Shown: piece after piece, positions 1 to 62,216 of the stretch
Numbering within the stretch: the stretch's first letter is position 1
Layout: each line of letters begins with the position of its first letter
DNA from: Auricularia sp. M13
Taxonomy: Eukaryota > Basidiomycota > Agaricomycetes > Auriculariales > Auriculariaceae
DNA: 64,000 bases
Assembly (NCBI GenBank): GCA_037042915.1
Contig: CM073199.1
Location: forward strand, 1,612,001-1,676,000
Reading direction: 5' to 3'
Notes under the pieces: model-generated
The model's database searches: none
Told to the model about the DNA's origin: nothing
What the model saw: only the letters and a program-made list of their open reading frames with translations
Program-made: the position numbers and the translations under genes

Positions 1-1645
1 AACCGTCCCCTGAACTGCAAATTTATCGAACCTTTCAAAGGGACTGGGTGGGCTCCCTGATCCCCTACGGCGAAGCATGGCGCGAGAATCGTCGCGTGGT
101 GCACTACTTCTTCCACGAGGGCGCAGCCAGGCGGTACCGCGAGATGCAAACGGCGCGCAATCTCACGCTCCTACAAGACCTACTTCGCGCGCCCGCAGAC
201 TTCGCAGAGCACATCCGGCACTGGACGGCGGCAAGCATCATGTCTCTTGCATACGATATCGACGTCGCACGAGCAAACGATCCGTGGGTTAGGCTTGCCG
301 ACTCAGCGTTCGAGGTCATGACGGGTGCCGGGCTACCCGGGCGGTATGCTGTGGACTGGGTTCCGCTGCGTGAGACAGCTCCCCTTCCCGCGAAGCAAGT
401 TTCTTATCAGTACTATGCTGCAGTGAAATATGTTCCCGCCTGGTTCCCCGGAGCAGGATTTCAGAAAATGGCCCGCGAATCACGCGTGGTCGCGGACCGC
501 GCCCGCTTTGCGCCTTTGCAGCAAGTCAAAGCACAGATAGTAAGCGACCGAACTGTCTCTAATGCAAGCTAGCATCCGTTAATCAGTTGTCGTAGAACTC
601 AGGAAAGAGCGGGACATCAGTGGCAGCTTCCCTCCTTCAGAATGGCCTGGAAGGCCGGCCCATTTCCGAGGAGCTCGTTGCTAACGCAGCCGGCGTGATA
701 TATCTAGGTGCGCAGCGTCGTCGTCGTACCGATGAGACCCGCTCACTATTTCCCCGCACACGCAGGCGGCGCTGAGACCACTGTCGCAGTGGTCACCGCG
801 TTCTTCTTGTGCATGGTTTTGAACCCTGCCAAACAACACGCTGCACAGGAAGAAATCGACCGTGTTCTTGGTCACGGGCGCCTTCCGGAGTTTTCAGACA
901 GGAAAGTACTGCCGTATGTTGAGAGCGTTTTGCTCGAGGTGTACAGACTGTACCCGGTCCTTCCGCTGGGCACGTATATTTCCTGTTCCTGAGTGACCCA
1001 TGAGAGCAGTTTCTGATGACTGCGACGATAGCTATTGGCCGTCGAGTAATGGAAGAAGATGAATACGCTGGTATGAGAATCCCCAAGGGTGCGACGATTA
1101 TTCCCAATTTATGGTGCGTCCGATGTGGCTGCCTTTCACACCTCACATCATATCTCAACGTCAAAGGTCAATACTGCGCGACGAGAACGTCTATAACAAC
1201 CCCGAAGACTTCATCCCTGAGCGCTACATGAAGGGCGGTAAATTGGATCTGATGGCAAAGACAGACCCCCGCCGAGTTCTCTTTGGGTTCGGAAGGTATA
1301 CTTTCTGGAAATATTCTCCACATGCCCCCAAAATAATTACAACTGCAAGGCGGATCTGTCCCGGGCGCCACTACGCTGACGCCTCAGCATGGCTAGCAGT
1401 TGCAACTATCCTCGCATGTTTCGACATTTCGCCTACAAAGGACAAAGACGGAAACGATGTGCTTCCAGGCGGGGAGCTTCGAAAAGGGCTCGTCACGTGA
1501 GTAGTACTGTACATCTCCTGCCCTTTGAACAGCGGGTTAATTGTACAAACACAATGGCAGCTGCCCTCGGCCGTTCAAATGCGAAATCGCCCCGCGCTCC
1601 GATGAAACCAGACGGCTACTAGAGGTCGTCATAGACACGCTGTGA
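1..1645 (+). CDS. Cytochrome P450, OrdA-like (5' end outside window)
   Basis: Heme-thiolate monooxygenase of the basidiomycete OrdA-like type; the substrate is unknown. The first coding bases seen are near 42 (DWVGSLIPYGEAWREN, helix C region). Spliced by eye, the exons give the I-helix GGAETT motif (about 765-785), the K-helix ExxR as EVYR (about 937), a PERY motif (about 1222) and, across an intron, FGFGR joined to RRICPGRHYAD, the heme-binding loop with its Cys. The last intron is 1497-1560 and the final exon reads CPRPFKCEI and stops at TGA 1643-1645. I saw no disabling change across about eight exons, so it looks functional. The N-terminal anchor and proline hinge lie upstream of the window. 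It faces the P450 at 1956-4043 tail to tail, and the two are very similar. Family membership is sure; subfamily is not. Confidence 0.9.
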
Positions 1646-1955: not shown

Positions 1956-4043
1956 TCACAGTGTGTCAGTGACAATCTGCAGCAGCCGTCTGGTCTCTGC
2001 GGAGCGCAGGGTGATGTTACATTTGAACGGCCAAGGACAACTGTCATTCCACAATTATGCCATGACTCGCAGGGTAGGGGATTTACTCACGCGACAAGTC
2101 CGCGGTCTTGGAGCTCATCATTGGGGAGCTCATCTCTCCCGTCTTTGTTCTGCGCAGGTGCAATATCAAAGCAGGCAACGATAGTGGCAACCGCCAGCCA
2201 AGCTGAGGCGTCCGCGAAATGGCGCCCAGGACAGATGCGCCTTGTTGTGATATAATTTCATCAACTCGCCTCGTAGAAAATGTTTGTGCAGCTTACCTTC
2301 CAAATCCAAAGAGTGGCCCACGCGGGTCTGTCGTGGCGGTCAGTGCCAACTTACCATCCTTCATGTAGCGCTCGGGTATGAAATCTCCTGGGCTTGTATA
2401 GACATTCTCGTTGCGCAGAATTGACCTATGAATGTCAGCATACGTTGATACGCATTAAGACAGGCATGCACCCACCAAACGTTGGGAACAACCGTTGCGC
2501 CTTTAGGGATCCTCATGCCAGCGTATTCATCTTCTTCCATTGCTCGATGACCGATTGCTTTCAACGCTGGCATCAGAACGTGCACCTCACGCCCTGCATA
2601 TATGCATACCTAACGGGAGGACGGGGTACAGTCGGTATACCTCGAGTAAGACGCTTTCAATGTATGGCAATGACGGCCTGTCCGAGAATTCTGGAAGGCG
2701 CCCGTGACCGAGAATGTCGTCAATTTCTTCTTGCGCGGCCCGCTGCTTCGCAGGATGTAAAACCATGCACAGAACGAATGCGGTGATCACCGCGACTGTG
2801 GACTCCGCGCCTCCTTATGGGTCGGGAAACATTGAGAGATATGGTCTTTTCAAAGACAGAAGGACGCATACCTATGTATATCGCGCCCGCTGCGTTGGCA
2901 ATAAGCTCCTCAGAGATGGTCCGCCCTTCGAATCCATTCTGAAGCAGGGAAGCTGCCACTGATGTCCCACTCTTTCCGGCGTTCTTCATCACGTGAGTAG
3001 TGAGTTATAACCGTCGTGAAAGATAAGGATGGTGTGCCTACAATTTGTGCCTTGACCTCGTCCAAAGGCGCAAACCGGATACGGTCCGCAACCTCACGCG
3101 AAAGTCGGGCCTTCTTCTGAAATCCAGCTCCAGGGAACCATGCGGGAATATACCTTACTGCAGGTATAATAGCAGATCAATCAATATGACGCTCGTTTTC
3201 CGAGCGCGGAATGTATCTCACGCCAGGGTATCCAGTCGACAGCATACTGCCCGGGCAGCCCACTACCTCTGACGACATCGAACGCCGAGTCGGCAAGCCT
3301 GACCCATGGATCTTCCCTCGGCGCCACGTCAATGTCGTATGCAAGTGACATGATACTCGACGCCGCCAGGTGCCGGATGTGGTCCAAGAAGTCGGCGGGA
3401 GAATGGAGCAAGTCTTGTAAGAACGCGAGATTGCGCGTCGTTTGCAGCTCGCGATATCGCCTTGATGCGTCCTCGTGAAAGAAGTGGTGCACAACCCGCC
3501 GATTCTCCCGCCATTCTTCGCCATAGGGCATCAGGGAGCCCAGCCAGGACCTTTGACAGGACCGTTGAGTCGAGCTAAAGCTGGAAGGCAGTAACCCTCA
3601 CCATCCCATGCTGTTACAGCCATATTAAATATACCATGTTTTGAAACTGAAGGGAAGCGATACGCACAGTTCGGAGAGCATGTTAAATGCGGGTCGGTCA
3701 GAGTAAATGCTTCCTCGCCTGTCGAGCAGCTCTGTGACAGCATCCAGCGAATTCAAGACAATGAAACGCTGCGTGAGCACGCGCAGGTACACAACGGGAC
3801 CTAGAAATCGCGCTTCATAAGCAGAAGAGGCTAGGACTTGTTCGCCGCACCATAGAGCTTGCCCAACTGTGCGAATGCTAGCCACTGGTCCGACTTCGGA
3901 ACGTCGTGTACATTGCCTAGAATCGCGTGCCGCGGAGGACCAGGAGGGAGAGGGAGTGATGATTTACGCCGCCCGAGAAACACCGCGGCAGAAAAGATGA
4001 AGAGGCAGACAATGACCAAGTAGTAGGTGCTGACGTGAATCAT
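1956..4043 (-). CDS. Cytochrome P450, OrdA-like
   Basis: Complete P450 gene. The protein starts with a membrane anchor (MIHVSTYYLVIVCLFIFSA) followed by the proline hinge LPLPPGPP, so it should be ER-anchored with a cytosolic catalytic domain. Visible motifs on the minus strand are WRENRRVVHHFF (helix C), EVYR in helix K, PERY, and FGFGR spliced to RRICPGRHFADA with the heme Cys. The last exon ends PFKCNITLRS...TDTL with stop at 1956-1958. It has about ten short introns. Proteins 1 and 2 share long near-identical stretches (for example SVAASLLQNG, EEDEYAGMRIPKGAT), so they are recent paralogues in inverted, convergent orientation with only about 310 bp between stops. A TATATA box lies 60 bp before the ATG. 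Substrate unknown. Confidence 0.9.
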
Positions 4044-33236: not shown

Positions 33237-33476
33237 CGAGACGTTTACTTCATTCATAGACTATCTAATCAGATTGCATTGTAACTTATCCTGTAGCCAT
33301 ACCTCGCCTTGCAGACCTACACTACTAGCTGTAATACTGTAGTGTATTCACAGTGCTTATTCTAATCAATTGGGCTTCTTCCAGCGAGCGAGTCGTCCCG
33401 GAGCCGCGCGAGTAACTGTTTGGCTTGGTACTCACTGTAACCTTGTTTACTGTCTCTCTCAAGACACTCTGCCTGC

Positions 33477-34424
33477 ATGCCGCCACATTTTGATCTGTCG
33501 CTACACTGCAGGCTTCAGGACATTGCTAGGAGCACTCTAGCGGCGCTAGGGCGAGCCAGATTCGAAGCTGCTGGCACTTCTTATGACTTGACATCGTCTT
33601 TGGAGACTCTGCGTGCTCAAACGGAGCTGGAGCCTGCTGATTCGTCTTCGTCTCGCCTATACACTTGGAATTCTAGTCCTGGCACCCACGCTTCTCCCAG
33701 ACGCGCAGGCAATATCACCTTCTCGCAGACGTCCACGCTACTCGCATTGCGACGCCTCGCGTCCTCTGGAGTTCGCCCGGGCGTGTTAAACTTCGCCAAC
33801 GCCGAGCACCCAGGCGGCGGCTTCCAGCACGGCGCCCAAGCACAAGAGGAGAGCCTCGCGCGCTCGTCCACGCTCTACGCGTCGCTCACCTCCGAGCGAG
33901 GCAGCCCGTTCTACTCCATGCACTCCACCGACCCGCCGGGGCTCTACACACACGCGATGCTCTGGAGCCCGTGCGTGCAGTTCTTCCGCGCAGACGACGG
34001 CGCGTGGCTGCCGCCAGTCGAGGCAGACGTGCTCACCAGTCCCGCGGTGAATGCGCATGAAGTCCGGCTTAGACGGCGCCTCTCTCACGATGCAGACAGT
34101 GACACTGAGGTCCTCATCGCCAGCACTATGCGCGAACGCATGGCCCGCATCCTCAGACTATTCGAGCTCAAGCAGAGCACGCACCTCGTGCTGGGCAGCT
34201 TCGGGACTGGCGCATTCGGAAACGACGTCGCAACTGTGGCGCGCATCTGGGCACAGGTGCTTGGTCCTGGCTCCCGCTACGAGCGCTCGTTTGACTGGGT
34301 CGAGTTTGCGATCATCGACCACCGCACGCATGACCTTTTCAAAGCGCAGTTCGAGCAAGATACTGTACTGCAGACATGGCTTCGCGGAAGGACTGACCAG
34401 CTCCATGTTCTGAGAATGGCCTAG
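33477..34424 (+). CDS. Microbial-type poly(ADP-ribose) glycohydrolase (PARG)
   Basis: Single-exon gene, 315 residues. It has the microbial-type PARG catalytic domain (TIGR02452/PF10021 type), which removes ADP-ribose chains. The macrodomain-like signature is complete: VLNFANAEHPGGGFQHG AQAQEESLAR, with the GGG-X-QEE catalytic pair. Flanking family blocks are ITFSQTSTLLAL, LARSSTLYASL, MLWSPCVQFFR, VLTSPAVNAHE, MRERMARILRLF and HLVLGSFGTGAFGNDVATVA, then FDWVEFAIIDH. No targeting signal. The gene lies 240 bp after the F-box/LRR gene on the same strand and converges on the DUF4246 gene. Family assignment is strong; cellular role in this fungus is inferred. Confidence 0.9.
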   Translation: MPPHFDLSLHCRLQDIARSTLAALGRARFEAAGTSYDLTSSLETLRAQTELEPADSSSSRLYTWNSSPGTHASPRRAGNITFSQTSTLLALRRLASSGVRPGVLNFANAEHPGGGFQHGAQAQEESLARSSTLYASLTSERGSPFYSMHSTDPPGLYTHAMLWSPCVQFFRADDGAWLPPVEADVLTSPAVNAHEVRLRRRLSHDADSDTEVLIASTMRERMARILRLFELKQSTHLVLGSFGTGAFGNDVATVARIWAQVLGPGSRYERSFDWVEFAIIDHRTHDLFKAQFEQDTVLQTWLRGRTDQLHVLRMA

Positions 34425-40905: not shown

Positions 40906-43183
40906 ATGACCGACGCGCCGCGCGGTGTGCCCACGAAAGGCGCGGCCTCTGCGGCCGTGAACGACGACGCCGTGCTGGCTGGCCCGCTCGTGCACGCCAA
41001 CCCGAACCAGACCGTCTATGAGCCCGAGAACGACGTGCGTGGCCCCTGGCACCCCCGCCGGCACGTACTGGCTGACAGTATCTCAGATGAATATATTCGT
41101 GGCCGCCCAGCGCGGCGACGTGAACCGCATACGACAGCTCATTGAAAGTGGCGAGGCGAGCGCGACCGACCGCGACGCGCAGAACGTCACCGCGCTGCAC
41201 TGGGCGGCCATCAACGCGCATGTAGCGGCCTGCAGGTACCTCCTGGAGCAGGGTGCCGAGGTCGACGCGCGCGGCGGCGACCTCGATGCCACGCCAATGC
41301 AATGGGCGGCCAGGTCCGTCTACCATTATGCCAGCTTTGCTGACGTGCTAACTGGGCGGTCTTGTAGAAACGGCTACCTTTATGTCATACACCTGCTCAT
41401 CTCGCACAACGCAGACCCTACGCTGTCGGATGGCCAGGGCTACAACACCCTCCACCTCGCAACGCATTCGTCTTCCGTTATGCCGCTGCTATACTTGCTG
41501 CACCAACCGGTAGCTGTGGACTCGCCGGACTCTGACAGCCACACTGCCTTGATGTGGGCCGCATACCAAGGCGACGCCATCTCCGTCGATGTGTTGCTCA
41601 AGCACGGCGCATCGCCCCATGCGCGCGACACCGCCGGCCTAACTCCATTGCACTGGGCGGTCGTGCGCGGCAACAAGGTCTGCATTCGCCGCCTTCTCGA
41701 GGCAGGTGCCGAGTTCAACGCTCGCGACGCCAACGGCAAGACGCCGAGAGACATGGCCGAAGAGCTCAAAAGCCTCGGTGCGTTCAAGCGCGCATTGGAA
41801 GAGGGCAACTTCAAGGAGGACGGCACGAAGAAGACAAAGATGCTAAGCGACCGCCAAACGAAATGGGCGATATTCCTGCTCCCTACGTTCTTCCTCTGGC
41901 TCATCTTCAAAACGGTGTCCTTCCTGACATGGTACACCGCGATCCCGCTCGCTATGGCAGAGTTCTTCGGCATGCACCACATCGTCACCCGCGTCCTCCT
42001 CAACCACAACAGCTACACGGACACCGTAACACACAGCCCGTACTTCTCTGGCATTATTTTTGGATCGATGATTTGGATCGGCTGGGCTTGGTCTACACAA
42101 CTTGTGCAGTACTACACAGGTTACGGTCTTTGGCATTCTGCCTTCGCGATCTGCTACGCGCTGTGTGTCTACAACTTCTTCCGCGCCGTCACGCTCGACC
42201 CGGGAACTTGTCCGAAACCTGCCAACGACGCAGAGCTCAAGGCGATTATTGAGGAGCTGACGAGCGAAGGCCGCTTGAATGGTCAGACGTTCTGCATAAA
42301 CTGCATGGGTCGCAAGGCGCTCCGTTCCAAGCACTGCCGCGTGTGTGACAAGTGCGTCGCCCGCTTCGACCATCACTGCCCCTGGGTATGGAACTGCGTT
42401 GGCGTCAACAACCACCGCCAGTTCATCATTTTCGTCACGACGCTCGTCTTTGGCATCATCATCTACGACTACCTTGCCTACGCGTACTTCTCAGAGCACC
42501 TCACGCGACTGCCAGACGCGGACCTCGAGATCTGCTCCTTCCCCGAGTTCATCTGCACTGCCGCGGCGCACGCGCCGTTCGTGCTGGCGATCACGGCGTG
42601 GTGCACGCTGCAGCTGTCGTGGACGATCATCCTCTGGCTGTCGCAGCTGTGGCAGATCGCGCGGCAGATGACGACTCTGGAGGTGACGAACCTCGGCCGG
42701 TACGGCTACATGGGCTCCAAGGGCACGTCGCTCGCGACACAGATGGGCCACTCGCACGCGCAGGCGCACACGCGCGCCGCGGACGACCTGGGCGACTCCG
42801 TCGGCCCGCGCCACACGCACCGGCACGCGGGCGGCTGCATGGGCTGCGCGAACTTCCTGCTCAACGTGCTCGGCCTCGACCGGTTCACGAAGGGCAAGGC
42901 CGTCGACGGCCTCGCGCGCGCGGGCAAGGCGAGCAACCCGTTCAACGTTGGCATCGTGGGCAACTGCAAGGACTTCTGGACGGGCGGCCGCGAGCTCGGC
43001 GTCGACTACCAGCGGCTCTACGCCATCCCGCAGGAGGGCTGGGAGGAGCGCAAGCGCCGCTGGGCGGCCGAGCAGGACAGCGGGCGGAGGCCCGAGGGGT
43101 TGCTCGCGAAAATGGGCCTGCGCATGGGCGGCGGACGGTCGAGGGAGGGATATTTGCCTGTGCGGATGGACGACCAGGTATAA
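40906..43183 (+). CDS. AKR1: Ankyrin-repeat palmitoyltransferase Akr1
   Basis: Protein S-acyltransferase of the Golgi/endosome, family DHHC with ankyrin repeats (Akr1/HIP14). Exons 40906-41034, 41087-41313 and 41368-43183 keep frame and give 723 residues. About six ankyrin repeats occupy roughly residues 45-240 (for example TALHWAAINAHVAACRYLLE, NTLHLATHSS, TALMWAAYQGDAISVDVLL, TPLHWAVVRGNKVCIRRLLE). Then membrane helices (WAIFLLPTFFLWLIFKTVSF, FGSMIWIGWAWS), the Cys-rich domain FCINCMGRKALRSKHCRVCD and the catalytic DHHC in ARFDHHCPWVWNCVGVNNH, two more helices (FIIFVTTLVFGIIIYDYL), a TTxE-like MTTLEV motif, and a His-rich tail. A stop-free intron at 41314-41367 can be misread as coding. Complete and intact. 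Confidence 0.96.
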
Positions 43184-46175: not shown

Positions 46176-46189
46176 TTCCTAGTACACGG

Positions 46190-46612
46190 AAACTGTTCGC
46201 AGTTGAACGGAGGCCATACAGATCATTTACCATGGTTAATACTGGACGATCTGAGTAGGTACCGCCACGCCTCTCCAAGAGCTCCGTCGCATGCTCAAGC
46301 GAATTCAGGACAATAACCCGCTTGTTGTGAAGACGCAGGTAAAAAAGGGGACCTTCAGATGTAGGCGTCAGAGTGGACGGATGTCTATTCGCCCTAAGCG
46401 CGTCACTTGCCATATATCTTGCTGGGGCACGCGAAAGCCTCCCACTGTTTCTCAGTCGGTATGTCACCGGTATTACCCTTGATCATGTGCGCTGGGGGCC
46501 AGGAAGCAAAGGCACCGAGTAGACATTGCGTCGTGGTCTAAACAGGAGTCCAGCCGCGCACAAGATACTTGTGAGAAAGGCATAGGCGTACAGTGGGAAG
46601 TCATGATGATGG
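46190..46612 (-). pseudogene. N-terminal P450 relic
   Basis: Reads like the first two exons of the neighbouring P450 but is broken. In one frame YAYAFLTSILCAAGLLF then VPLLPGPQRT matches the anchor and proline hinge; a frame change then gives GNTGDIPTEKQWEAFA, and later LTPTSEGPLFYLRLHNKRVI, VLNSLEHATELLERRGGTYS and DRPVLTMVNDLYGL, which match exon 2. In-frame stop and frame change lie near the hinge, and everything after this exon (helix C through heme loop) is absent, replaced by the duplicated block at 46010-46175. It is a 5' remnant of a tandem copy of the gene at 47076-49193. Confidence 0.8.
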
Positions 46613-47075: not shown

Positions 47076-49193
47076 TCAGATGGTCTCCGTTACTTCGACG
47101 AGCAGCTTTTTCGTGGCCTCTGACCGCGGCTTTATGATGCATTGGAATGGTCGTACACAGCTATCCCAGATTCGCATAGGCTTTGTAAATGACATTGCAT
47201 TCTGCGGATGGGGTACAACATACGTGAGTGCGCCAGTGCGAAGCTTTCCTTCGGGCACGATCTCGTTGCCATCGTTGTCCCTTGCGCGTACAATGTCGAA
47301 GCATGCGAGCGTGGTCGCTATGGCTAGCCAGGCTGTAGCGTCTGCAAAATGGCGACCGGGGCAGACCCGCCTGTCAATTCAGCAATGTCTTGTCAATCCT
47401 CACTAGTTCAGAGGAAATTCATTGCCGCGTACCGTCCGAATCCGAAGAGGGGGCCCCGTGGGTCTGGTTCCGTGTTCTTCAAGTCAAGTACACCATCTTT
47501 GGTGTAGCGCTCGGGAATGAATTGGCCTGGATTGCGGTAGTTGTCTTTGTCGCGCAGTATTGCCCTGCTCGAACAGAAAACCATCAACACCTCGCAGCTC
47601 CCGGATGGTCAAGTATATCACTGACCACACGTTCGCCAAAATCGTAGCATCTTTTGGAATTCGCATGCCCTTGTATTCGTCGTCCTCCATAACTCGATGG
47701 TACAGTCCTGGAGTAAAATCAACACAGGCATATGTCCGGTTGCGTCGACTCACCCAGGGGCAGTACGGGATACAATCGCATGGTTTCTAGCAGGACCCCG
47801 TTGACGTATGGCAGAGAATCCCTATCTGCGAACGATGGAAGAGAACCGTGTCCCAGCACGCAATCGATCTCGTCCTGCGCGGCTTTTTGGACTTCGGGGT
47901 GAAGGACCATGCACAGGAAGAACGCGCTTATCACGGAGACGGTTGTGTCAGAGCCGCCTGGTGAAGTTGAATCATTGTCAATTCCGGCAAGCGTCAACTC
48001 CCCGTAGTACTCATACCGATGTAAAGAATGGCAGTGACATCGGCAAGCGTCTCCTCGGATATGGGGCGTCCTTCCAGACCGTCTTGCATCAGTCTCTCCG
48101 CAATGGATACGCCATGACTGCCTTGCATCTAACAAGGCTCATGTTCAGCTCTATTAATCGTGAATGCGTGAAGTGCCCACAATTTTCTGCTTGACCCACT
48201 CCAGCGGGCCGTAGCGGAATTGGTCTGACATCTCTCTGGCTTTCTGCGCAAGTTTTTGAAAGGATGCTCCCGGGAACCAAGAAGGAATGTGCTTGACTAC
48301 CAAAATGCAGCGTAAGATCGGCTACCATTGGTGAATTCGGGTTGGATTTGTAGACTCACGGATAGGGAGATAGTCCACTGCATACGTCCCGAAATTAACG
48401 GCGGCCGTTAATATTTCTATACATTCGTCGGCGAGATTGACCCAGCGGTCGAGTTCATCCCCTTCCATGCCGTACGTGAGCTTCAGAATGCTGGACGCGG
48501 TGAGGTGGTGGATGTGTTGCATGAATGCGGATGGTGAATGAAGAAGTGCGCGCACGAACTCGAGGTTCGTCTGCGTCTGCAAGTCTCTATATTTTTCAGA
48601 AGCTCCCTCGTGAAAGAAGTAGTGTATAGCGCGGCGGTTGGAACGCCACATGTCGCCATATGGCATGAGCGATGTTTGCCATCCCCTTTGAGAATGGTGT
48701 GTCAATCAGAGCGACTCGATGTGAGCTGACCTCACCATCCCATCCTATGCAACGAAGAAAATGTGTCAGAAAGGACGTATGTATGGGTCACAATTGAACG
48801 GGAGTCGTACACTTCGCACACCATGGTCATTGCTGGACGATCCGAATAGATGCTGCCACGCTTATTCAAGAGTTCCGTGACATCTTCAAGGGAATTTAGG
48901 ACAATAATCCGTTTGTTGAGCACGCGCAGGTGAATGATAGGTCCTTCAGATGCGAGCGTTAGAGTGGTCGAATTTCTGCTAGCACGGTTGCGCGACTTAC
49001 CATATATATTGCCTAGGCGTGCGAAAGCCTCCCATTGGTTCTCCGCTGGTATGTCCGCGCTGTTCCCCGTAATAATGTGGGGTGGCGGCCCGGGCGGTAA
49101 AGGAAACGGAGGGGAATTGCGTCGCATGAGGAACCAAATACTCAGTGCGCCGAGCATAGTGGTACAGAGGGCGTAGGCGTAGTACGAACTCAT
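47076..49193 (-). CDS. Cytochrome P450, OrdA-like
   Basis: Complete multi-exon P450. From ATG 49193 the anchor MSSYYAYALCTTMLGALSIWF is followed by the hinge FPLPPGPPPH and GNSADIPAENQWEAFARLGN. Later exons give SLMPYGDMWRSNRRAIHYFF, FGTYAVDYLP, GGSDTTVSVISAFFLCMVLH (I helix with the Thr), ETMR (K helix), HRVMEDDEYKGMRIPKDAT, PERY and FGFGR spliced to RRVCPGRHFADATAWLA with the heme Cys, ending PFQCIIKPRSEATKKLL...ETI at 47076. No disabling change seen. It belongs to the same family as the copies at 0-4 kb but to a separate branch. A TATA-like box lies about 50 bp before the ATG. Likely ER-bound; substrate unknown. Confidence 0.9.
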
Positions 49194-49241
49194 GTTGCCA
49201 GAATATCGGCTGCGAGTGTAGAGTGACCAACCTGCATTGGC

Positions 49242-49251
49242 TTTAATATAT
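49242..49251 (-). promoter_or_regulatory. TATA-like box of the P450 at 47076-49193
   Basis: TATATTAAAG on the minus strand about 50 bp before the ATG. Confidence 0.5.
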
Positions 49252-49552
49252 GTCAGAATCCGCACCATAGAACGGTCTCGACGTACCGCTGAGCTGGTGC
49301 AAGCCCCGCAAAACGCCACATCACGACTTTTTATGTGTTAAGCCAATACTAAGTAAAGGGCCATACATCGCGTGTAGGCGGCAGCGGGAGAAACGGAGCG
49401 CCGTTCTTGCGAGAGAAGTAGTTGAATTCGGCACGATTTCGTGTGTAAAAGAACCGACTAACATGGGACGACGACGTCAGAATCCAAACAGGCCTCATGA
49501 TTCGGGTGGAACTTGTCCGACTGTATACACACTTTAAACCATGGAAAGCACT

Positions 49553-51659
49553 TCAGATATTCTCCAGCACGGTACTGAGCACGCGTTTCGTCTCCTCAGA
49601 GCGCGGCACGATATTGCATTCGAACGGTCTTGGGCAGCTGCATGAACGTGAGTTGGCAGTCAGGGTGTCCAGAACTGTCAAAGCAAATTCTCACGTGACT
49701 GCGCCTGTCCGTAGCTCTCCCGTTGGTGGCACATCATTCCCCTTCTCGTCCTTCGCGGGCGCGATACTGAAACAAGCCAACACGGAGGCAATGGCCATCC
49801 AAGCTGCAGCGTCCGCGAAGTGACGTCCAGGACAAATTCGCCTGTCCAACTGTTATCACCTCCCTCCAAAGCAAAGCACTCACATGAGCCATACGCACCT
49901 CCCAAATCCGAATAGAAGGGTACGAGGGTCGGGAACTGAAACAAGATCCAATACGCCATTCTTGAGATAGCGGTCTGGACGGAATCGATGCGGTTCTGGG
50001 TAATGATTTTCGTCGCGAAGGATGGCCCTAATCGAGTGCATGGGCATCTTTCTGCAGCACCAAAGCAAGCAGCGGACGTACCACACATTCGGCAGAATCG
50101 TCGAGCCCTTGGGGATCCGCATGCCTTGGTATTCATCGTCCTCCATCACTTGGCGGGGTAGGGCTATCCATCCGGTTGTGAGCGCGCAACATTCCCACTA
50201 CATATTGCACATGAACGTGCTGACTTACAGAGAGGCAGAACCGGGTAAAGTCGAATGACCTCGAGCATCACGGCGTCAACGTATGGCAAGGCATCCCTGT
50301 CCGCGAGTTCGGGGATGCGGCCGTGGCCAAGCACACGATCGATTTCTTCCTGCGCCGCCTTTTGCTCCGCAGGGTAGAGGACCATGCATAGAAAGAACGA
50401 GGCGAGTAAGGAAACGGTGGTCTCGGCGCCGCCTGAAAGCTTTGTTAGCAGGGCTGACGGCATTGTTGGGTTACAGATGCACGCACCTAAGTAGATCGTG
50501 GCCACGCTGTGGGCTAAGATGTCCTCGGGAATGGGGCGGCCGTCCAGGCCGTTCTGAATTAAACTTGCTGCTATTGACGGTCCGCTCTTTTCAGCACGCT
50601 GCCATCGGTATATGTAAGCAGCATTCTTTGGACGGTGAAGACAGTGGACGTACAATTTGTTCCCGTGTCCATTCCAAGGGTTCAAAGCAGAGTCGATGCG
50701 CGAGTTTTTGCGATTCTTGGGCACGTCTCTTGAAAGAAGCGCCGGGAAACCAAGCAGGAACGTACTTCACTAGAAGAATATCGCTGCATTAGGAGCGCCG
50801 CGACAATGACATTGCCGAAGAACTTTAACTCACAGGCAGGGATCCACTCGACGAGGAAAGATCCCGGCATACCAGCCACAGTCATGTCTTCTATCGCCTC
50901 GTCTGCGAGTTTGACCCAGGGATCGTCTTCGCCATCGACCTTGATGCCGTACGCCAGAGACATAATGCTCGACGCCGTAAGAGTTTGAAGGTGCTGGAAG
51001 AACTGATGTGGCGCTCGGCGCAGTGCGTCCAAGAACTCGAGATTTGACTTGGTCTGCTGCTCCAGGTAGTCTTTGGTTGCTCCTTGATGGAAGAAGTGGT
51101 GGTATACGCGTCTGTGTGCGCGCCATGTCTCCCCGTAACGAAGGACAGAGCCAACACATCCCCTAAGCGCGTGAGCTCCTGGGCGACTGTGATAATTGCA
51201 GGGTGGAATTGTCTTACCATCCCGACCTGAACTAGCGTCAGAGAGCGCGCAAGCCTTACATGAGCAACGAGTCGGCGTACAGTTCGGTCAACATGATGAA
51301 CTCAGGCCTATCTGAATAAATGTTGCCGCGCTTGTCGAGAAGATCCAGTACGGCGTCCAAGGAGCTTAAGATGATGATGTGCTGGGACAGCACTCGCAGG
51401 TGCATCACAGGTCCTTCACCAGCATTAGAGCTATATAGCGCCGTGTAGACTATGACGGCGCACCATAAACTCTACCCAAGCGCGTGAATTCCAACCATTG
51501 ATTCGTTGCAGGAATGTCCCTGGCGTTACCGAAGATAGGATGTGCTGGCGGACCGGGTGGGAGAGGCAAAGAGTTTGCTTTGCGGTAGTGATTGATCAAG
51601 AATACGAGGCCCACGCTCAGGGTCGAGAGCCCGAGGAGGGACGAGCTGGTTAGCGCCAT
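49553..51659 (-). CDS. Cytochrome P450, OrdA-like
   Basis: Complete multi-exon P450. From ATG 51659: anchor MALTSSSLLGLSTLSVGLVF, hinge LPLPPGPPAHPIFGNARDIP, ATNQWLEFTRLGRVYG. Later exons show SSIMSLAYGIKVDGEDDPWV, GPSIAASLIQNGLDGRPIPE, GGAETTVSLLASFFLCMVLY (I helix), EVIR (K helix), MMEDDEYQGMRIPKGSTILP, FRPDRYLKNG, FGFGR then RRICPGRHFADAAAWMA with the heme Cys. The last exon CPRPFECNIVPRSEETKRVL ends at TGA 49553-49555. All motifs are intact. It is in tandem with the P450 at 47076-49193, separated by about 360 bp, and has a TTTAAA box 55 bp before the ATG. Substrate unknown. Confidence 0.9.
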
Positions 51660-60664: not shown

Positions 60665-62216
60665 TCACCACGCCCATGCCTCGGTGGCAGGGCATTCGCT
60701 CAGAAGGATAGCCTTGCGCGCGAGCGCAGTGGCGACGCCGACAGCCCAGATGGTGAGCGGGATGCTCGGGAACTGGAATATCGTGCCGGACCAGCTACCG
60801 TCCTCCTCCTGCTCGTCCAAGAGCGTCTCAAGATCCTCGCTATTGGGCACGCCGGCCATGCAGCACGCGAGCACGCGCATGGCGAGGCTGAGCGCGTCGC
60901 CGGGCTCGCCGACACGCTCCTCCAGGCGCGCCTTGAGCAGCGGCGCCCACTCCTTCCGCAGGGCGGGCGCGCGGTACAGCAGCCGGCACGCGAAGAACAA
61001 AAACGCGTCGGGCACGGGGTAGTACCGCGTCCCGTTCGGGATGTAGCCGCGCTGCTCGAGCGTCGCGCGCGCAAACGCCACGCTCTCCGTGATGTCCTCC
61101 CCGCGGTCGTGCGAGAAGAACAGGGAGGCGATGTTCAGGCACACCGTCGGGTCCACACGCGGCCGCGAGCGGTCGAAGTACGTCTGCAAGCGTGTCGCGT
61201 TAGCAATACATCCGCGCTGAGTGAGCAGGGTCGACCACGCACCATGAGGATGCCGTTCTCGTTTTTGTAGGTCAGCATCTCGTCCATGACGGTCTGCACG
61301 GCCTTCGTGTCCGCGTTCAGCGCAGTCAGCGACAGCGACGTGGTGTCCATGTCGTCAGGGAACGACTCCGCTTCGGGCCCTGCAGCCGATCAGTATATGC
61401 GCCACACAAGCTAAGGGAAATCGCACCCTGATAAAAGTTGTAGTGGAGGCCATCGCGTGCCTCGATGGTAACCAAGCTCCGGTCGTCGGTGAGCTCGAGG
61501 ATCATCATCTGCGAGAAGTTGTCCGTAATGAGCTCGCCCGTCTCCTTGTAGCAGTACATGCGGCCAGCATGTTCTTCGAGGAACTCGTTCGCGAGATGGA
61601 GCACGCCGGAGAATGCGCCCGCGAGGAGCGTGCGGAACGTCGCCTCCTCCGCGAAGACGATGCTGCGAAGGCCGAGGTCGCGGGCAATCCGGACGTGTTC
61701 GACGTTGTCGTCGAAAAACACGGTCTGCCTGGGGTCGACGCCAGTCTGCTCGAGCACGTGTTCGAAGAACCTGCGCTCGGGCTTGCGCGCGCCAGCTTCG
61801 CACGACATGAAGACGCGATCGAAGAGCCCCCACGAGTTGACGAGCTTGAGCGCCGCACGCGAGTGCTCGGCACCGACGTTGGTCATCGCGTAGACCTGGA
61901 GACCGTAGCGCTGTTTCAATGAACGGATAAAGGAGACGAGCTCCATGTTGGCGCGCAGCGTGGTCGTCGCGGAGGTGATGGCTTGGCGCAGGAGCGACGT
62001 GCGGACGCCGGTCTCAAGAGAAATGCGCGCGTAGCACTCATCGACGGTGATGCGTCCGCGTTCGAGTTCTTGCCACGGCGCGGACTTGGTGGCGGCGCGA
62101 AGAACGTCGGGAGGAACATCGCTCGTTGTCGGGGCCGACCAGTGGAGAAGGACGTCGCCGAGGTCGCAAATGAGCGCGTTGTAAGGGCTGGGCTCGGCGA
62201 AGGTTTGGGGCTTCAT
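60665..62216 (-). CDS. HAD-fused class II terpene cyclase, AstC/drimane synthase-like
   Basis: Two-domain protein; exons 62216-61427, 61379-61243 and 61183-60665 keep frame to give 481 residues. Residues 10-235 form a HAD-like domain with motif I ICDLGDVLLHW (Asp18), motif II AMTNVG (Thr112), motif III Lys145 in RKPERRFF and motif IV VFFDDN (Asp169/Asp170). The C-terminal half carries DMDTTS (residues 273-278), the D-x-D-T-T motif by which class II terpene cyclases protonate a double bond, then QTYFDRSRPRVDPTVCLNIA-like family blocks. This is the layout of the fungal AstC/AncC-type enzymes that cyclise farnesyl diphosphate to drimane-type products. With HAD residues present, the enzyme may also dephosphorylate its product, but that is inferred. 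A start at 62327 is possible; 62216 fits the family and a TTTTTAT box (reverse ATAAAAA) at about 62302. Confidence 0.86.

Follow-up and report, generated by a model that had tools for sequence, protein, structure and literature searches.

In terpene cyclases of the HAD-TC beta type, one polypeptide joins an N-terminal HAD domain to a class II cyclase beta domain at the C-terminus. Through them, drimane and monocyclofarnesyl skeletons can be reached with a single enzyme. Description of the family began with one member in 2016 (PMC5024094), and crystal structures have been reported for bacterial (PMC12365925) and fungal (PMC13244436) enzymes. The closest described systems are AstC of Aspergillus oryzae, a drim-8-ene-11-yl diphosphate synthase (PDB 22TZ, 22TY and 22UA), and AsDMS, the drimenol synthase of Aquimarina spongiae (PDB 9MHS). 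The basidiomycete members that we saw described as characterised are few: AncA, AncC and DS3 (PMC10608071, PMC10126200). AncC of Antrodia cinnamomea is a (+)-albicanol synthase with a bicyclic product, and AncA yields (R)-trans-gamma-monocyclofarnesol (PMC10608071). DS3 of Termitomyces makes monocyclofarnesyl alcohols and, according to its authors, may be a dysfunctional drimenol synthase; the homologues DS1 and DS2 are reported to show no activity as fusion proteins (PMC10126200), so family membership is no guarantee of an active recombinant enzyme.

Here we describe a gene that very probably encodes an intact, bifunctional class II HAD-terpene cyclase (HAD-TC beta), as predicted from its sequence. 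It lies in a window of 64,000 nucleotides, the whole stretch of DNA analysed, on contig 7, which is 3.9 Mb long, in a genome of 52.1 Mb and 14 contigs. Since the family was published in 2016 and is represented by crystal structures, the gene adds a member to a known family and does not open a new enzyme class. An intact, single-copy member with a mixed pocket would, however, help to distinguish residues governing the number of rings and the position of the double bond from residues governing phosphorylation state.

Gene model and exon structure

The cyclase gene occupies 62216-60665 on the minus strand, a strand that the earlier note on this DNA had not given, with the ATG at 62216 and the stop codon at 60667-60665. 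Removing two GT..AG introns leaves a predicted coding sequence of 1446 nt with the stop, encoding 481 residues without internal stops, arranged as follows.

61427-62216, minus strand: exon 1, the HAD phosphatase domain and the start of the cyclase domain, residues 1-263 and the first base of codon 264 (translation; tblastn with AstC 1-244 and AsDMS 37-243; Pfam PF00702, 7.6e-11)
61380-61426, minus strand: intron 1, 47 nt, GTGCGA..CTGCAG, with the AstC/AsDMS alignment restored across the junction
61243-61379, minus strand: exon 2, the class II motif D273-M-D275-T-T-S (tblastn with AstC 264-303 and AsDMS 314-372)
61184-61242, minus strand: intron 2, 59 nt, GTGCGT..TTGCAG (translation)
60665-61183, minus strand: exon 3, the rest of the cyclase alpha-helical domain, the QW-type motif QEEDGSW and the stop at 60667-60665, the coding part ending at 60668 (translation; tblastn with AstC 302-465 and AsDMS 370-503)

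To locate the introns, GT..AG segments of 40-110 nt were removed in pairs by brute force, the first of each pair starting more than 600 nt into the frame. Because 811 intron pairs keep at least 460 codons open, an open frame alone proves little, and the pair listed above is preferred not for the greatest length but because its junctions restore the alignment with AstC and AsDMS. Further support comes from tblastn across the window, where AstC, AsDMS and a relative from Aquimarina aggregata each match the three exons collinearly in three frames. E values on the exons were 4e-70 for AstC (best match elsewhere in the window, 0.067), 2.5e-25 and 2.5e-23 for AsDMS (elsewhere, 2.7), and 7.5e-21, 1.4e-20 and 1.3e-7 for the A. 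aggregata relative (elsewhere, 0.12). The translation places D18 in DLGDVLL, T112 and N113 in MTNV (111-114), K145 in KPE, D169 and D170 in FFDDN, DMDTTS at residues 273-278 and QEEDGSW at 434-440. The 481 residues, the three in-frame exons, and the positions of Asp18, Thr112, Lys145, Asp169/170 and DMDTTS given in the earlier note are all reproduced in this translation.

Relationship to characterised HAD-cyclases

Among solved structures, the full protein matched AstC over residues 10-473 (E 4e-84), the isolated AstC cyclase domain, AstC-TC (2.6e-56), AsDMS in both halves (9MHS, 1.9e-53) and 9M7D, an entry named only as a HAD protein (9.1e-53); the next match after these HAD-cyclases was a HAD phosphatase at 1.4e-13. 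Identical residues occupy 159/456 aligned positions with AstC and 137/470 with AsDMS, while AstC and AsDMS share 111/460. Under the two-intron model the chain has the HAD-TC beta layout. The DxDT(T) acid/base set is present, with D273, D275, T276, N326 and Y364 aligning with D271, D273, T274, N324 and Y361 of AstC (position 273 is Asn in the crystallised variant), and QEEDGSW matches the published definition of the QW motif, Qxx(D/G)G(G/S)W (PMC5024094). The full-length matches and catalytic residues support the earlier assignment to the HAD-fused class II cyclases of the AstC/AncC/AsDMS family, and the protein search against AstC and a bacterial drimenol synthase, proposed at that stage as a check, ranked HAD-cyclases and not plain HAD phosphatases at the top.

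Scanning bacterial and archaeal genomes with a single sequence gave no relatives among 277 pattern matches; a three-sequence alignment gave 37 pattern matches and, among them, six loci: five carry the label Aquimarina, the sixth Flavivirga, and one of the six is AsDMS itself. These six were added as rows to the residue alignment. At two of the three bacterial loci for which upstream ORFs were listed, the gene for the HAD-type drimenol synthase is immediately preceded by an ORF that by eye resembles a polyprenyl diphosphate synthase (L009 1963-2832 and L013 1959-2828; absent at L014), an arrangement that would fit a supply of farnesyl diphosphate. One copy of the cyclase was found in the query genome, with no second copy at E 0.001 or better.

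Cyclase pocket and predicted product

We assessed pocket geometry by mapping residues onto published structures. In AsDMS, changes at D331, D333, Y427, Y373, Y426 and Y319 are reported to leave no activity, and a change at R378 to remove 96% of it (PMC12365925). All seven matching residues are present here (D273, D275, Y364, Y311, Y363, Y262 and R316), as are N326 and T276, the counterparts of AstC N324 and T274, mutants of which are reported to give no product (PMC13244436). Two diphosphate-sensing residues of AstC are missing, with I450 in place of K451 and a gap in place of Q265; AsDMS likewise has no lysine at the K451 position (S514). AsDMS F518, which as alanine costs 73% of activity (PMC12365925), corresponds to I454 and is isoleucine in AstC too, and W455 stands where all seven other aligned sequences have glycine.

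Exchanging AsDMS Y319, F509, A511 and F518 for the AncC residues F271, Y459, F461 and A468 is reported to shift drimenol towards albicanol (PMC12365925). The same four positions read Y262, F445, F447 and I454 here, two of drimenol type, one of albicanol type and one of AstC type. Two of four thus agree with the drimenol synthase set (Y262/F445; F447 and I454 differ) and one of four with the (+)-albicanol synthase set, so the pocket is not of the AncC type. In AacA, joint replacement of Y253 and F444 by the DrtB residues gave some drimenol (PMC13244436); this pair corresponds to F261 and F447, the Y253 equivalence being a probable one. As a mosaic of drimenol-, albicanol- and AstC-type positions, the pocket gives no clear product prediction.

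On our best reading, by analogy with the relatives, the product would be a cyclised farnesyl monophosphate or alcohol. Of the earlier proposal of a drimane-type or related cyclase, the family holds and the drimane skeleton is plausible but not proven, since two basidiomycete relatives, AncA and DS3, make monocyclic products. We regard it as possible, though tentative, that this member of the family closes one ring only and gives an AncA/DS3-type monocyclofarnesyl product of the kind that leads to abscisic-acid-like or nectrianolin-like compounds; our best explanation, which allows either ring number, in part includes this case. Among the three basidiomycete members considered here with a reported product, AncC alone is bicyclic (PMC10608071, PMC10126200), and the pocket matches no bicyclic reference cleanly, both of which favour a single ring, but F261, Y262 and F445 are residues of AsDMS, an enzyme with a bicyclic product, and DS3, as its authors allow, may be a drimenol synthase that no longer functions (PMC10126200). 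In our judgement, which is not a measurement, a bicyclic drimane is about twice as likely as a monocyclic product. The mosaic pocket (drimenol-type F261/Y262/F445, albicanol-type F447 and AstC-type I454, together with I450 and W455) may also lead to a product not yet reported for the family, with a fungal HAD domain removing both phosphates. We consider this unlikely; such a product might be a drimane isomer with the double bond elsewhere, a drimane diol formed by water quenching or a compound of different chain length.

Phosphatase site

In AsDMS, alanine variants of D43, G45, N139, K171, D195 and D196 are reported to lose all activity on drimenyl monophosphate (PMC12365925). The query retains all six of these residues, as D18, G20, N113, K145, D169 and D170, and the same six are conserved in 6/6 bacterial loci, AsDMS among these. 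AstC, described as having no phosphatase activity on its product (PMC13244436), differs at three of the six, with E13, K15 and N166 against D18, G20 and D170 here. The published numbering of AstC conflicts with its deposited sequence at this site: PMC13244436 lists Glu13, Asp166 and Asp167 as the non-canonical HAD sites, and the deposited sequence reads D165-N166-D167. Should the numbering in the paper be right, two of the six positions certainly differ between AstC and AsDMS, and whether a third does depends on the alignment.

With six of six AsDMS-essential residues kept, and three changed in AstC, the HAD site is by sequence of the active AsDMS type and not of the inactive AstC type, which strengthens the suggestion in the earlier note that the enzyme is possibly bifunctional. 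A cyclase-only enzyme with a non-hydrolytic, AstC-like HAD cap would suit the fact that AstC is the closest solved sequence, with 159 of 456 aligned positions identical, but is improbable given a site that shows none of the degeneracy seen in AstC. An intact HAD site does not in itself predict full dephosphorylation, since the metal and phosphate centre of AacA is described as conserved relative to AsDMS and yet AacA is reported to stop at the monophosphate (PMC13244436).

Pfam reports HAD families only for this protein, and NCBIfam likewise, bar one chance-level match (E 0.13). Because Pfam also sees AncA, AncC and DS3 just as HAD_2 (PMC10608071), this picture is not evidence against a cyclase, and the plain HAD phosphatase, or pseudogene with a decayed cyclase half, to which it might point is highly improbable for a gene with no stops or frameshifts under the two-intron model and a cyclase half that matches AstC-TC on its own and keeps its catalytic residues.

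Proposed mechanism

Gene structure, full-length homology and catalytic residues are taken from the locus itself; for substrate, chemistry and dimer we draw on published relatives. In the bifunctional HAD-TC beta enzyme that we favour, the C-terminal domain would bind farnesyl diphosphate with the headgroup at Y311, R316 and Y363, and D275, polarised by N326 and Y364, would protonate the terminal double bond. The ensuing cation cascade would close one or, more probably, two rings, and the cation would be quenched by proton loss, with D273/T276 in the role of base as proposed for AstC; for AsDMS, a water molecule has been proposed as the base instead. By analogy with AstC and AacA, the dimer would be head-to-tail, and the cyclised diphosphate would then pass to the HAD domain of the other subunit. 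There D18, aided by K145, would attack the phosphate, while the G20 carbonyl, D169 and D170 coordinate Mg2+. The reaction would end at the monophosphate, as it does in AacA, or go on to the free alcohol, as in AsDMS and AncC.

Genomic surroundings

The genome had been described in the earlier note as rich in P450s, and rightly so: we found at least 114 P450 exon matches genome-wide (a lower bound, with 92 of 288 candidates scored), the nearest about 9 kb from the cyclase gene. The P450 genes of the neighbourhood, and the gene that separates them from the cyclase, are given below.

50170-51548, minus strand: exons of the P450 gene nearest to the cyclase, about 9 kb away (Pfam p450, 3.7e-17 and 4e-05; genome scan; tblastn)
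47740-49337, minus strand: exons of a second, related P450 gene (Pfam p450, 1.2e-19 and, below the family cut-off, 0.003; genome scan; tblastn)
52.4-52.7 kb: RRM gene, between the P450 genes and the cyclase (Pfam)
39-968, plus strand, and 2542-4037, minus strand: further members, with the two genes above, of a local P450 family (genome scan; tblastn)
L015 2466-5506 and 9579-9949, plus strand: members of the same family beyond the left edge of the window (genome scan; tblastn)

The P450 genes at 47740-49337 and 50170-51548 are possible but unproven pathway partners. Our search for partners covered P450s and class I terpene synthases genome-wide, and other families among 37 ORFs in the window and the 40 kb to its right; these ORFs were selected for their length and from a set of 75 coding-like segments, and represent part of the exons only. 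Class I terpene synthases (PF19086) matched at four places in the genome, none of them on the contig of the cyclase. The other ORFs scanned at 53-60 kb had no Pfam family match. Six ORFs were scanned in the 10 kb that follow the window (L005); two scored above the family cut-off, one as a carbohydrate-binding domain (CBM_4_9) and one as a CCDC90-like protein. Further to the right lie a pectate-lyase-like gene, an AMP-binding enzyme and a HAD-like hydrolase. With the nearest P450 about 9 kb off and beyond the RRM gene, we saw no compact dedicated cluster among the ORFs scanned, and nothing there resembles the compact clusters described for antrocin (PMC12001456) and astellolide (PMC5024094). 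Phosphatases accompany AstC in its cluster; the HAD-like hydrolase ORF at L008:5046-5741 (plus strand; PF12710, 4e-05, scoring 24.6 bits where the cut-off is 27) is by contrast far from the cyclase, some 37 kb to its right.

The related P450 genes extend over about 60 kb on both strands, with 33-86% identity between matching exons. A piece at 46180-46590 on the minus strand resembles a P450 N-terminal region (44% identity) and has an in-frame stop in the frame tested; with the P450 queries used, no C-terminal part was found between it and the amidohydrolase gene at 44.0-45.9 kb, and it may be a truncated copy. On one contig (C11), P450 exons at 353253-354608 (plus) and 2114843-2116198 (minus) score 253.3 and 253.1 bits in opposite orientation, and a further equal-scoring pair lies at 276667 (plus) and 2157835 (minus). 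These pairs may reflect an inverted duplication, although spacing within the copies differs (about 77 against 43 kb).

Elsewhere in the window, on the plus strand, are an ankyrin-repeat DHHC palmitoyltransferase (41030-43177; Pfam DHHC 7.6e-32, Ank_2 2.3e-31), a microbial-type poly(ADP-ribose) glycohydrolase domain (33444-34418; PF10021, 3.3e-34) and a member of the putative cyclase family PF04199 (9929-10636; 8.2e-16). The peroxidase extension family PF11895 has 16 matches in the genome against none in 14 control genomes, which we take to point to a white-rot basidiomycete. The basidiomycete pheromone family had no matches in the genome but none in the controls either, and is uninformative.

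Comparison with known systems

AstC and the query have domain order, length, DxDTT and QW motif in common. Unlike in the query, the HAD site of AstC is degenerate and inactive (E13, K15 and N166), and its pocket reads Y256/F257/F309/F360/Y446/Y448 against F261/Y262/Y311/Y363/F445/F447 here. AsDMS shares all the HAD and cyclase residues listed above, and its F318-Y319-F509 is the F261-Y262-F445 of the query; it differs in A511 (F447 here) and F518 (I454), and is longer at the N-terminus and in the stretch that links the domains.

AncA, AncC, AacA, DrtB and DS1-3 were compared through published positions and descriptions, AstC and AsDMS through aligned sequences. AncC and AncA are, like the query, basidiomycete HAD-like cyclases. 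By the published AsDMS-AncC equivalences (PMC12365925), AncC F461 is retained as F447, and F271, Y459 and A468 are replaced by Y262, F445 and I454. AacA, the albicanyl monophosphate synthase of Aspergillus aculeatus, has an active phosphatase half that stops at the monophosphate (PMC13244436). Its Y306, Y357 and F444 would correspond to Y311, Y363 and F447 of the query, the first two by way of published residue swaps (PMC13244436), whereas its Y253 probably becomes F261, R443 becomes Q446 and G445 becomes P448.
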